This document shows, piece by piece, positions 655-24,489 of a DNA stretch of 43,343 nucleotides (positions are counted from its first letter, which is position 1; the number at the start of each line of letters is the position of its first letter). Source of the stretch: Alkalinema sp. RU_4_3 (GTDB taxonomy: Bacteria; Cyanobacteriota; Cyanobacteriia; Leptolyngbyales; Leptolyngbyaceae); the NCBI GenBank assembly GCA_012031975.1, contig JAAUSA010000014.1:1-43343 (forward strand), given 5' to 3'. Below the pieces are notes generated by a model, which had not been told where the DNA came from, did not search any database, and saw nothing but the letters and a program-made list of their open reading frames with translations. A program made the position numbers and the translations under genes.

Positions 655-3227
655 CTAGACCGTCTTCACCTTCGCCTCCAGCGCCTCCAACCGACTCCGC
701 AGCAATCGATTCTCCTCCTTCATCTGGTCAAACTCCTGCCGCAGTTGATTCACCGCCACCGTCGAACCCGATCGAGACTGGACGATCGCTATTGCCTCCT
801 CGGCCATCCGCCGCGTTCGACCATCCGCCCCATCGCCCGTAAAGCCTTGCAGCAGGGCGATCGCCTTCGGGGTTTCCATGGATTCTAGGGCGACGATCGC
901 CGACACCTGGGACAGGAAGAAGCGTTCGCGGGACAGTTCCTTCAGGCGATTTAAGATCCGTTCTAGGTTGGGTTTCTCCTGGCCCGTGGAAATGCTCCCA
1001 AGCGATCGCACCGCCGCCAGTCGCAAAGGCTGCGCAACGCCGATTTCTGTATATTGCATCAGCAGATCCAACGCCGCCCTCGACGTTTTCATCCGACTCA
1101 GGGCACCGATCGCCCCGATGCGCAACACCTCATTCCAGCTCGATCGCTGCGCCAACGCCTCCGACAGAATACTCAAAACCTCTGACTCAGCCGGGGCTTC
1201 AGGCAAACCTGAGGCCGCAAATGTCCCGAGGTTTCGCAATGCTGCGGCTTCCACGAGATAGCTGGCGTCGCCGGACTGGGCGATCGATCGCACCGCTTCG
1301 TAACTCGCCTTGGTTTTGAAACTGGTGAGGGATTCTATGGTGACTCGACGGACCCGCGCCTCTGGATCTTTTAATCCCAACAGCAACGCATCAAAGGCTT
1401 GGTCGAGTTTGACCTGAGATAACGCCTGGGCCGCCTCTAGTCGAACGCCCCAGAATTTGTCGTTCTCCAAGGCCTCCTGCAATGCCTTAACCGCTTCCAA
1501 CCCACCCTTTTTGCCTAGGGCTCTGGCCGCATGAACCCGACTGACCGCCTCCGGATCGCCCAAGAGTTGTGCCTTCAGCTCTGGCACAGGATATTCCAGC
1601 GCCACTGATTTAAGGGTGTAGTTGCCGCGATCAAAACTAACAAACTCCGGTTTCTCAGCCAGCGGGAAGTAGAAAGATTGCTCCTTCTCATGGATGCGCA
1701 CAGTCAGGGTTTGAACAATTTCCTGATTGCGACCAAAGGCAATCGGTAGTTTCAAATCAAAGCAATCCGCATCCGATTCAGCCTGCGTTTGCGTCACCGT
1801 AACTTTGGCTAGCTTACTATCATATCCCAGCTATAAGCCACCTTATAATCGGGATGACCCCCCGATAGACATATTGATCGAACATCGGCGCAAGATTCTT
1901 ACCTGTCGCCTGCTCGATGGCCCGCAGCAGATCCACCGTCTCCACCACGCTATGGGCATGGTTGCGCAAAAACTGACCCATGGATTCCTGGAACAGATCA
2001 TCGCCCAATTCCGCCCGAACCATGTGATAGACACAGGAGCCCTTTTCGTAGATATGGCGATCGTACAGTTCGATCGCATCTCGGTAAACATTCGTCACCA
2101 AGGGCCGACGATAGCGCCCAGAATCCTCACTTTGGTATTCCTCCGCCTGACCCAACAAATAATAATGGGCCAAATCCTCGCCATACTCATGCTCCAGCCA
2201 GAGCACCTCCGCGTAGGAAGCCGCCCCCTCCTTCACCCAAGCATGGGACCAGTGCTTAATCACCGCCAAATCGCCAAACCACTGGTGGGCCAATTCATGG
2301 GCCACTAGGGTTTCGCTGCTGAGATTGTCGATCGCTGCCCGCTCATCTAACAAACAACGTGTCGTCAATAGCGTCGTGGAAGTATTCTCCATTCCACCAA
2401 AAATAAAATCATCCGCACAGACCTGCGCATACTTATCGTAGGCATAGTCATAGCGATAGGTCTTGCTGAAAAACTCCACCATTCTGGGGGTCTTGCCCAT
2501 GGTGAGTCTGGCCCGATCCTCCAGACCCGGCGTCACATAGTAGGTAATCGGCTTACCCCGCCATTCATCGCGCAGCTCCACATATTCCGCCACCGCCAGC
2601 GTCATTAGGTAGCTGGGATGCACCTGGTTTTGCTGCCAATGGTAGATCTTCCGATCGCCCAAGTCCTCCACACTCGCCAAGACCCCGTTGGAAACCGCGC
2701 TAAACGTTCCCGGCACCGTCACCCGAATTTCCGAGGTCGCCAACTGCCCTGGGTAGTCAAAACAAGGGAACCAATAGCGGGAATCCTCATCCTCGCCCTG
2801 GGTCCAGACCTGCACAGGCTTGTCGGGATAATGCTCCGTAGGTTTAATGAAATACATGCCGCGATCGGGCTGATTAATCCCATAATCAATGGCCACCTCC
2901 AGCCTGACCCCCTCGCTCGGTGGGCTGCAACAACTGCACCGTCAACCGATGGCCATCGTAGCTGTAGGGCTGGGGAACCGCCGCAATGGTCACCGCCTTA
3001 ATTTCCAGACTCACCGCATCCATCACAATGCTCGTAATTCCATCGCGCACGGGGCAAATTCTCGTGGTGCAGGTGCCCGAGGCGCGCTCATGGGGAATGT
3101 CTAGAACCAGATCCAGGGCAATATGCTCAACTTGACCTGGGCGATCGGGATTGTACTGCGGCTTTGCCCCCGGCAGTTCAAACGCTTTGTAACGACTATT
3201 CGACAGCACAGACCAGACCTGACTCAT
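655..3227 (-). CDS. pepN: M1 family aminopeptidase N with C-terminal HEAT-like repeats, frameshifted
   Basis: Zinc metallo-aminopeptidase removing N-terminal amino acids from peptides, cytoplasmic. Three overlapping frames together give one M1 protein of about 855 residues. The first (from 3227) has the N-terminal beta domain. The second has the substrate motif GGMEN, the zinc motif HELAH with the downstream Glu in WVKEGAASYAE, and ends at QYVYRG. The third (to 655) is an alpha-helical HEAT-repeat tail ending in a coiled coil. The breaks are a surplus base in the C-run at 2908-2912 (repair gives ERGVRLEVAIDYG), a missing base in the C-run at 1858-1863 (repair gives YRGGHPDYKVAYSWD), and one more missing base near 1820-1830. 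Start chosen at MSQVWSVLSN. Three lesions in one gene could mean a pseudogene, but two fall in homopolymers like the other breaks in this window. Upstream is a 320 bp gap with hairpins. Confidence 0.85.
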
Positions 3228-19764: not shown

Positions 19765-19937
19765 GGGTGTAGACAAATTGAAGGTTTGCGATCGACATCT
19801 CAATCCATAGTATATTATGTCCTAGGCTTTCTAGCCCATAGGCTTCTCCTTGCCGTAGGCCCTTCTAGGGTCGATGCTAGGGTTCCTATCAAGTCCATAC
19901 CCTGGGGGCATGGCGGAATGGTAGACGCAACGGACTT

Positions 19938-20633
19938 AGACAATTTGAGCACCAAGGCCGAAATGCCCTGTGTGAATGGAGTCAAATTCGGTGAAAGCTT
20001 TAATCTGCTAACGCCGAGCTAAGTTCCGGGTTACGCCGTTTCTTCTTCCCACGATAGGTGGGGGTAAAACAGTGACAGTTGGGGCACAGCAGTCTTAGAT
20101 TGCTGAGGGAATTATCCTGGTTGTTGCCATTGATGTGGTCTAGTTCCAGTGGAATGGGTTTGCCCAGCCACTCCGTTAGATGGCAGCCTTCGCAGCGATG
20201 TTGTTTGATTCCAGCTCTGAGCAGCTTGAGCTTCAGTTTGTAGGACTGAATTGGATACTTGTTCGTCAAGTGGTCTGAAATATCTCTTCTGCTACCTAGT
20301 TGCTGATCCTTACTCCAACCCTGATGGGTGAAGTGAGAAACATCGAGGTTCAATGTGGTGATGCGCTTCTTGAGGGAATCGTAGTTGCCGCCCGCAGGCT
20401 TCAGTCCTAACTTGATTAGGACCTGTCGGTAGGAACAGGAGGTTGCGATCGCAAGCTTCAGTTCTGATTCTGTGTACTTGATCATCGGGCGTTCCGGAAA
20501 AAGTGTAGAGACTAGACGGCTCCTACCTGACTGACGAAGGGTTCGTTAAAAGGTAAAGGCATAGTCCAGACTACAAACATACTCAGATGGGCACATCTAT
20601 CTCAGGTATGGCAGTGAAAGCTGTAGTGGTAAG
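19938..20633 (+). ncRNA. Group I self-splicing intron in tRNA-Leu(UAA)
   Basis: 696 bases from just after the U of the anticodon to a terminal G (AAG before AAAATCC), which fits omega-G. The 5' exon end CUU can pair with GAG near 19947 to form P1 with a U-G at the splice site. Core-like elements are seen at the 3' end, for example CATAGTCCAGACTACA near 20560-20575 (P7/R-S region). Plain tRNA-Leu introns are usually 200-300 bases; the extra length here is an HNH gene on the opposite strand. No full secondary structure was computed. Confidence 0.9.
20000..20485 (-). CDS. HNH endonuclease encoded antisense inside the tRNA-Leu intron
   Basis: 161 residues, a likely homing endonuclease for the intron. 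The HNH domain reads PLELDHINGNNQDNSL (His117) to NLRLLCPNCH (Asn129 region, Cys134, Cys137, His138), with a second zinc pair CEGC at 98-101, so a zinc-ribbon-braced HNH nuclease. N-terminal residues 1-50 form a small helical basic region with CSYRQVLIKLGLKPAGGNY, a DNA-binding module frequently attached to phage HNH proteins. The gene is on the strand opposite to the tRNA, and its last codons overlap intron core sequence near 20000-20035. No strong RBS is seen before the ATG. Confidence 0.9.
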   Translation of the reverse strand: MIKYTESELKLAIATSCSYRQVLIKLGLKPAGGNYDSLKKRITTLNLDVSHFTHQGWSKDQQLGSRRDISDHLTNKYPIQSYKLKLKLLRAGIKQHRCEGCHLTEWLGKPIPLELDHINGNNQDNSLSNLRLLCPNCHCFTPTYRGKKKRRNPELSSALAD

Positions 20634-20880
20634 AAAATCCGTTGATCGCAAGGTCGTGAGGGTTCAAGTCCCTCTGCCCCCATCATAGGTTTGTCAAAAC
20701 CTATTCCTGAACGCGGTTTAGTGACAAATCGCACCAAGACGTTGTGATCTTCCATCGATCGGGCACCCTGAATTCGGTGCATGATGTAAGATAGCTAGGC
20801 TAGAAGCGAAGATTTCAGTCCAGACATTTCAGTGTCGTCACATGCTCGGGGACCCCTCATTCAGCGATCGCAAGAGTTCT

Positions 20881-23169: not shown

Positions 23170-23597
23170 GCATCTATGGCCCTACGGTGGATTTCGCGCC
23201 AGGGGAGATTGTGCTGGCGGGCAATGGTGGCACAGTCTTCGTATTCGGGCTGGACATTCAGGAGTTCGCCATTGTGGTAGGCGAGTTTGATGGCGATCGG
23301 GCCTTGGGGCAGCGTGACCGTCTCAAAACGGCGATCGAGAACCGTACGCTCCTGCTGACTGCGGCGGATGCCGAGGGTGGTGGTTTCGGTAAAAATCAGG
23401 CGCTCGATGGGTGGGACTTGCTCAGGGAGGCAGATGACGGTGAGTAAGATCCCAGGGCGGGACTTCTTCATGCCGATCGCCTGGGTAAACACATCCAAGG
23501 CCCCCTGCTCAAACAGGCGATCGAACAGATAGCCGATCGCCTGGGGACTGAGATCGTCGATCTGGGTTTCGAGCACCGTGACGAGCGTGCTAGTCAT
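23154..23597 (-). CDS. larC2: LarC C-terminal part (LarC2), nickel insertion for nickel-pincer cofactor
   Basis: 147 residues matching the C-terminal domain of LarC (DUF111): [59 protein letters not shown] and the ending [19 protein letters not shown]. LarC inserts nickel into the pincer cofactor of lactate racemase and related enzymes. The start ATG overlaps the stop of the upstream part by 8 bases (ATGACTAG). In Lactobacillus plantarum LarC is made from larC1 and larC2 by a programmed frameshift; in many cyanobacteria it is one frame. See the paired entry. Confidence 0.88.
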
Positions 23598-24489
23598 GGC
23601 CGATCCAAAGGCGGAGGATGTTGGGAATCGGCAGGCTGATGGTGCCCGCCCCCAGGCCGATTTTTTCCAGGGTCATGGCCGGAGTCGGGCCGAAGTGGTG
23701 GGCGAGGGTGGTAACAATGGCGGCGCCCGTGGGGGTAACCAGTTCGCGATCGATGCCGTTGTGGTAGAGCTGCACCTGCCGCATCTCCAGGAGCTTGAGC
23801 ACCGCTGGCACAGGCACAGGCAACCGTCCATGCTGCGCCCAAACCGTTCCGCCGCCCGTGGGCAAAGGCCCGCAGTAGATCCGCTCAATCCCCAGCCATT
23901 CGAGGCCAAGACAGGTGCCCACAATATCGACGATCGCATCGATCGCCCCCACCTCATGGAAATGCACCTGCTCCGGCGCAATCCCATGGACTGCCCCCTC
24001 AGCCTTGGCCAGCGATCGAAATACTGCCAAACTCCAATCGGAGGCGCGATCGGGCAGGGCCGCACCCATGATCATCTGTTCAATTTCCGGCAGGTGGCGG
24101 GTGTGGCTGTGGGAATGGGGTTCGTGACCGTGGGAATGGGGTTCGTGGCTGTGGGAATGGGAATGGCTGTGGGAGTGAACTTCACTGTGGGAGTGGGTTT
24201 CACTGTGGGAATGCGCCTCGCTGTGGGAGTGGGTTTCACCGTGGGAGTGGCTGTGGGATTGGGTTTCGTGGCTGTGTTCATGGTCATGCAGGAGATCGAC
24301 ATGGACCTTGGTGGCCTGTTGGCCATTGTGCTGCATGGGTTCGGCCCGCAGGCTATATTCGCCTTTGATGCCGAGGCGATCGAGGTGGGTGACCAGATAG
24401 TCCAGGGGTAGCCCGATATCCACGAGGGCACCCAGACACATGTCCCCAGCAATTCCCGTCGGGCAGTCGAAATAGGCCACTTTTGCCAT
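23590..24489 (-). CDS. larC1: LarC N-terminal part (LarC1) with His-rich metal-binding stretch
   Basis: 299 residues with the LarC N-terminal domain: [65 protein letters not shown] and [12 protein letters not shown]. Between residues about 67 and 130 lies a His-Ser/Glu repeat tract with over 25 His (units [11 protein letters not shown]), fitting a nickel store or sensor; it is much longer than needed for catalysis. The frame ends at RLWIGHD after the start of the second part. No larA, larB or larE lies in the window, so the client enzyme is elsewhere. Confidence 0.9.

Follow-up and report, generated by a model that had tools for sequence, protein, structure and literature searches.

The window, a 43,343-nt stretch of DNA from Alkalinema sp. 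RU_4_3, contains a tRNA-Leu(UAA) gene interrupted by a group I intron, within which an HNH endonuclease gene runs on the opposite strand. This arrangement raises the question of how the nuclease gene came to lie in the intron, and why it is antisense to the tRNA. According to the original prediction, recent invasion by a free HNH gene could have restored mobility to the old trnL intron of cyanobacteria, which is regarded as vertically inherited, and the antisense transcript could disturb or regulate splicing.

The features of the locus are summarized in Table 1. The insertion between U34 and A35 with a terminal G, as originally predicted, was confirmed by the sequence, by the parse of 40 relatives, and by ARAGORN, which called a tRNA-Leu(UAA) with a 696-nt intron at this position when introns were allowed and no tRNA at the locus when they were disallowed. 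The junctions (GGACTT/...G/AAAATCC) show an anticodon-loop insertion preceded by U and ending in G, as is characteristic of mobile group I introns of the tRNA type. The HNH gene forms an insert in the P6b loop, and the P6 strands UUCCGG and CCGGAA pair across the gene. This pairing was retained by other bases in eight relatives, with or without the HNH gene, at 6/6 pairs each; the variants among relatives included CUCUGG/CCAGAG, CUCUAG/CUAGAG, UUCCAA/UUGGAA, and CCUGAG/CUUAGG. The covariance-model check proposed with the original prediction gave a divided result. A search of the window at the Rfam gathering threshold returned nothing, and an E-value search against the Rfam group I model (RF00028) gave the window intron a sub-threshold 13.6 bits (E=1.1), whereas an HNH-less intron of the same type (L020) passed at 51.5 bits; the window intron thus falls below the cut-off probably because of its insert. 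The phage introns L057, L077, L079, and L092 independently passed RF00028. The compensatory changes in P6 and the RF00028 matches of HNH-less relatives of the type (L020, L057, L077, L079, and L092) are those expected of a conserved group I core. Elsewhere in the window, the minus strand at 23590-24489 encodes a protein with a long histidine-rich stretch, which we take to resemble LarC-type nickel insertion proteins.

Table 1 Features of the tRNA-Leu(UAA) locus in the window.
Feature	Position	Strand	Description	Basis
5' exon, tRNA-Leu(UAA)	19904-19937	+	terminus ...CGGACTT (last base U34)	sequence, parse across 40 relatives, ARAGORN with introns
Type B group I intron	19938-20633	+	696 nt, last base G	sequence, exon/intron parse, core tree, P6 covariation
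HNH endonuclease gene	20000-20485	-	161 aa, intact, antisense to tRNA	profile searches, purifying selection
Last 8 HNH codons and stop	20000-20026	-	antisense to conserved P4/P5 strand	
P6 stem 5' strand	20024-20029	+	UUCCGG	6/6 pairs in each of 9 introns
P6 stem 3' strand	20494-20499	+	CCGGAA, past the HNH gene	6/6 pairs, compensatory changes
Conserved core segment, P7 5' side	20503-20519	+	GTGTAGAGACTAGACGG	alignment of 42 introns
Conserved core segment, P7 3' side	20560-20572	+	CATAGTCCAGACT	alignment of 42 introns
3' exon, tRNA-Leu(UAA)	20634-20682	+	first base A35, start AAAATCCG	sequence, parse of relatives

The predicted 161-codon antisense frame was verified as an HNH gene by matches to Pfam HNH_3 (E=1e-5) and to PHROG HNH families (down to 2e-48). 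Its C-terminal domain carries two CxxC pairs (C98, C101, C134, and C137) and intact H117, N129, and H138, that is, the zinc- and metal-binding residues of the HNH motif. In the AlphaFold2 model (mean pLDDT 88, pTM 0.56), an N-terminal three-helix region resembles a helix-turn-helix and the C-terminal part has an HNH fold. Fold comparison returned common HNH and helix-turn-helix arrangements only, with a weak best Z of 5.5, and a PDB sequence search gave nothing significant. The same gene was found at the same spot in G017, a genome from another genus of the window's family, with a protein 80% identical, and the frame is therefore not a product of chance. The two copies agreed at 82% of first, 90% of second, and 44% of third codon positions (dN 0.145, dS saturated), and their intron cores agreed at 75/86 and 93/108 aligned positions. 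For the two gammaproteobacterial HNH copies, dN/dS was 0.12. The window HNH is a maintained gene under purifying selection.

The gene could still be a decaying passenger in this genome, in an intron that splices and no longer homes. Neither a clear Shine-Dalgarno sequence before the window copy nor a promoter-like site on the HNH strand of the window was found. Many antisense phage and gammaproteobacterial copies have a Shine-Dalgarno sequence, for example AAAGGAGG before ATG, and antisense-strand expression of these copies is plausible. The C-terminus enters the intron core, as had been predicted, and the final codons overlap the P4/P5 strand. The frame stops before the core in the gammaproteobacterial homologues and extends further in G017, so that the overlap seems to stem from loss of a stop and not from design; this is consistent with decay, as is the presence of HNH in only two of the 40 relatives. 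Nevertheless, the frame is full-length, the zinc and HNH residues are all intact, and the amino acid sequence is strongly constrained between the window and G017; we consider decay rather unlikely.

The trnL site was parsed into exons and intron in a set of 40 genomes from the family to which the window belongs, its own genome (G000) included. A canonical intron was present in 14 genomes and none in 18, whereas six carried the window's type of intron, type B, without HNH (one of them partial) and two carried type B with HNH. Because the trpA - DUF3007 - ndhL neighbourhood was kept in most loci whatever the intron state, these four states are alleles of one locus. On the flanking-gene tree, type B required six changes and all states ten, and within genus g11 alone one genome had type B with HNH, two had type B, and four were intronless. 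Among 388 cyanobacterial genomes sampled, type B was found in eight, all in the window's family, and HNH in two. Such patchy presence at an orthologous site is a mark of a mobile group I intron. Fixation of the antisense gene across a whole clade, which the original prediction had set against mobility, was not what these counts gave for either the family or the class.

The canonical core signature (GGCAATCCTGAGCCAAGCC, GTGCAGAGACTCGACGGG, and an ...ATG end) is absent from the window intron. A tree built from 42 intron cores placed the canonical introns in one clade (100/100), set off by a branch of about one change per site, and type B in another (100/99), whose sister was a pair of phage introns with antisense HNH (81/87). 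These comparisons suggest that the window's type B intron is most likely a mobile group I intron that came from outside. When both cyanobacterial intron types were forced into one clade, the tree was not rejected (AU p=0.15), so that a separate origin of the canonical and type B introns is favoured and not proven; an earlier claim that their polyphyly was proven was weakened for this reason. No close phage donor was found. That cyanobacterial trnL introns have more than one origin was argued before by Rudi and Jakobsen (1997, cited in PMC5733544).

The invasion of an ancient intron by a free HNH gene, on the other hand, would agree with the shared U34/A35 site, with the HNH-less type B introns of the near relatives G018 and G023, which imply gain or loss of HNH within type B, and with the AU result just given. 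It is difficult to reconcile with the canonical introns, a distant clade of their own, that 14 relatives carry at this orthologous site, with the affinity of type B to phage introns in the best tree, and with the lack of type B outside the window's family in the 388-genome sample. Synonymous sites are, moreover, saturated between the window and G017 copies, which makes a recent invasion doubtful, and the view of the window HNH as a recent arrival was dropped. We regard this origin as quite improbable. Of the mobility originally proposed, what stands is a mobile intron, plausible from its scattered presence; an old cyanobacterial intron made mobile again is not supported.

We examined the genes that neighbour HNH relatives elsewhere. 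The 80 closest relatives in viral contigs (sample 1) were inspected with ARAGORN and core motifs, and a second viral sample comprised 60 relatives from two other queries, from which anything at least 90% identical to sample 1 was excluded. In sample 1, the intron of tRNA-Leu(UAA) contained the HNH gene, or the tRNA gene was at most 200 bp away, in 78/80 cases, with another tRNA nearer in six of the 78; in sample 2, 54/60 were in or beside tRNA-Leu(UAA). At loci with several tRNAs, the nearest was Leu(UAA) in 14/17, compared with 4.7 expected. Bacterial genome contigs yielded six relatives. Four were from candidate-phylum bacteria (L004-L007), where HNH lay directly 5' of an intronless tRNA-Leu(UAA); the L007 contig ends inside that tRNA, and L004 and L005 have no other tRNA gene nearby. 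The remaining two, from gammaproteobacterial MAGs (L002 and L003), occupied the P6 region of a trnL(UAA) intron on the antisense strand, and the tRNAs there are ordered glycine-cysteine-leucine. Members of the window HNH family are mostly borne by phages and, with few exceptions, lie in or next to tRNA-Leu(UAA).

If the family had no target specificity and lodged in phage tRNA clusters, it might meet tRNA-Leu(UAA) by chance, and more distant HNH relatives do adjoin other tRNAs (Leu-UAG, Glu, Gly, and Ile). This is extremely unlikely in view of the nearest-tRNA test, the proportion at tRNA-Leu(UAA) out of sample, the lone tRNA-Leu(UAA) of L004 and L005, and the position of the HNH-carrying introns, all of which interrupt one tRNA at one nucleotide position.

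A sister HNH group of the Citrobacter phage Michonne type (L009, L177, L178, L180, L181, and L182) was located just 5' of tRNA-Leu(UAG), which suggests that HNH subfamilies have specialized, each on its own tRNA gene. Related HNH genes of Gordonia phage GodonK, cyanophage S-CRM01, and Rhodococcus phage Dorin (L010, L011, and L015, respectively) sit between tRNA genes and nearly abut the next one. Many phage genes called as tRNA-Leu(UAA) (L055, L070, L077, L079, L086, L101, L107, and L111) are only 73-77 nt and, with or without an intron, lack the long variable arm that is usual for tRNA-Leu.

Around this one gene, the nuclease was found in several lodgings: within P6, either antisense or, in L012, sense; in the P1 loop immediately past the 5' splice site, in sense orientation (L073, L081, L090, L093, and L103); and, in either orientation, beside intron-bearing or intronless genes. 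A free-standing nuclease beside an intron-bearing gene occurs in relatives such as L072, L077, L079, L101, and L108, and not at the window locus; in those relatives, the nuclease and the intron may share a cutting site in a way that resembles collaborative homing.

A tree was built from 63 HNH proteins, and its 26 antisense members all fell on one side of one branch (85/95), so that orientation changed once in 60 sequences, a number as low as which was reached in 0/500 shuffles. These 26 comprised 10 in P6, 7 beside intron-bearing genes, and 9 beside intronless genes. A single clade of the 10 in-P6 members was rejected (AU p=0.002), and so was a single clade of the intron cores from the antisense group (AU p=0.006), indicating that the histories of nuclease and intron are partly separate. 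After 60 more sequences were added, a quick tree required 8 orientation changes in 109, compared with 30 in shuffles, and 33 changes of lodging. The claim that orientation never changes was consequently dropped. Antisense orientation is thus inherited while location changes often; the window HNH belongs to a phage lineage that is mostly antisense, and its orientation is no oddity born in the cyanobacterium.

These results also bear on the predicted role of the antisense transcript in regulating tRNA-Leu splicing. The HNH gene is indeed antisense over P6 and part of P4/P5. Nonetheless, members of the same clade are antisense outside introns and beside intronless genes as well, and an orientation inherited in this way need not have evolved for splicing regulation; the P6 pairing is kept across the insert; and no regulatory signal or other feature bearing on splicing control was found. 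Such a role is very unlikely.

If the nuclease cuts this tRNA gene, neighbouring targets may carry traces of it. The exons of all the intron-bearing genes listed read GACTT/AAAATC, a sequence that splicing could also demand. We then considered intronless genes, on which splicing makes no such demand, taking GACTTAAAATC as the intron-site sequence of an intact arm; the intronless trnL form is GGACTTAAAATCC. In sample 1, intronless genes with a free-standing HNH within 130 bp kept GACTTAAAATC in 3/22 cases, as against 45/57 viral controls without HNH. In sample 2 it was kept in 12/29 (p=7e-4), a weaker effect, and in the pooled samples in 15/51 (p=3e-7 versus the controls). Depletion of the intact site is as expected if it is the footprint of resistant alleles at the insertion site of the intron. 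In statistical terms, the loci thus have the target side of a homing endonuclease, whose gene lies in or beside a target protected by interruption or sequence change.

The altered anticodon stems might instead reflect lineage history, given that several of the loci are related, that the effect was weaker in the second sample, and that the controls are viral, with none for the candidate-phylum bacteria. The depletion, however, held when one locus per supported clade was counted (3/15, p=4e-5) as well as in the pooled data, and different substitutions at 30:40, 31:39, and 32 recurred in separate clades; lineage history is accordingly a somewhat unlikely explanation. Resistance through these bases is not universal, because a free-standing HNH lies within 130 bp of an intact, uninterrupted GACTTAAAATC in L048 and L120 of sample 1 and in 12 loci of sample 2. 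The third sample 1 locus counted as keeping GACTTAAAATC, L063, has a tRNA-Leu(UAA) at 1316-1433 (minus strand) that is interrupted by 41 nt at the very position of the intron and adjoins a free-standing HNH; the insert is either a worn-down intron or unrelated.

A pattern search of the window genome found no uninterrupted tRNA-Leu(UAA) with a standard arm, nor did one of the HNH-bearing G017, while four intronless sister genomes do have such a site. Since G018, G023, and G030 carry the intron without HNH and, like any intron carrier, necessarily lack an uninterrupted site too, this comparison of HNH-bearing genomes is weak on its own. Contig C332 of the window genome carries an array of 29 tRNA genes with no ORF of at least 90 aa (L312:960-4051), and this array holds a second, 74-nt tRNA with a UAA anticodon, whose arm, CCAAACTTAAAATTTGG, is an A30:U40 variant.

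Taken together, these findings suggest that the window HNH is quite probably a site-specific homing nuclease of tRNA-Leu(UAA), housed in P6b of a mobile intron and belonging to a phage-dwelling family that introns have captured repeatedly. From the comparisons above we infer DNA cleavage and its position, homing, the direction from phage to cyanobacterium, and expression of the antisense transcript. The nuclease would recognise the anticodon arm around GACTT^AAAATC and cut or nick intronless tRNA-Leu(UAA) alleles, such as those of the window's relatives; repair by copying from an intron-bearing allele would then transfer the intron together with the HNH gene. The window's own allele would be protected by the interruption of its target site. 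The family, living mainly in phages, may have moved repeatedly among three lodgings at one target: the intron itself, the flank of an intron-bearing gene, and the flank of an intronless gene whose changed anticodon stem presumably cannot be cut. Free-standing versions would cut from beside a resistant gene, and the antisense orientation would have been inherited from the phage nuclease clade. Alternatively, phages may carry the nuclease and a protected tRNA-Leu(UAA) as a weapon, in which case the nuclease would destroy tRNA-Leu(UAA) genes that lack such protection, in the host or in co-infecting phages, the interrupted or mutated phage tRNA would replace them, and homing into bacterial chromosomes would be a by-product. 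We consider this alternative unlikely.

An antisense nuclease gene like that of the window is found in the S956-2 intron of Didymium, whose nuclease is of the His-Cys box type. That homing endonuclease gene is likewise antisense to its group I intron (Johansen 2006, cited in PMC3679873), which lies in nuclear rDNA, unlike the tRNA gene of the window; P6 is a known location of such genes in rDNA group I introns (PMC3679873). The canonical cyanobacterial and plastid trnL(UAA) intron (Xu 1990 and Kuhsel 1990, cited in PMC3984707; P6b variation, PMC4476775) shares with the window intron its tRNA, its U34/A35 site, and a variable P6b loop, whereas the window intron differs in core sequence and clade, in the HNH gene in P6b, and in its patchy distribution within the family. 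Nuclease-driven homing would offer a mechanism for patchy trnL introns in cyanobacteria, in which trnL is a marker common in identification (PMC4476775). A tRNA-anticodon-specific nuclease in cyanobacteria, I-Ssp6803I, is encoded in a tRNA-fMet intron (Bonocora and Shub 2001, cited in PMC1995217 and PMC3984707). It differs from the window nuclease, an HNH protein at tRNA-Leu(UAA), in its target and in its PD-(D/E)XK fold (PMC1995217), and these papers do not report it as a family that follows one tRNA through phages in several lodgings.

A search of the open literature returned no account of an HNH family dedicated to tRNA-Leu(UAA), of group I introns of this kind within the tRNA genes of phages, or of resistant alleles of the target next to such an HNH. 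According to a 2014 review, every phage intron observed lay in a protein-coding gene (PMC3984707), whereas group I introns were found here in many tRNA genes of phages. Homing by free-standing phage endonucleases and collaborative homing have both been described, the latter being the leading proposal for an intron and a nuclease that share one site, although its origin is said to be unclear (PMC2988022, PMC10448857). As in those systems, nucleases of the window family can lie beside the presumed target gene, and intron and nuclease may share one site. T4 SegB, a GIY-YIG enzyme, cuts in a phage tRNA intergenic region (PMC2988022); unlike SegB, a single HNH family here occupies all lodgings around one tRNA gene, with nuclease genes on either strand of the introns. 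One nuclease family thus displays the whole series of lodgings around a single, tiny target, which makes the shared-site question testable with short synthetic tRNA genes.
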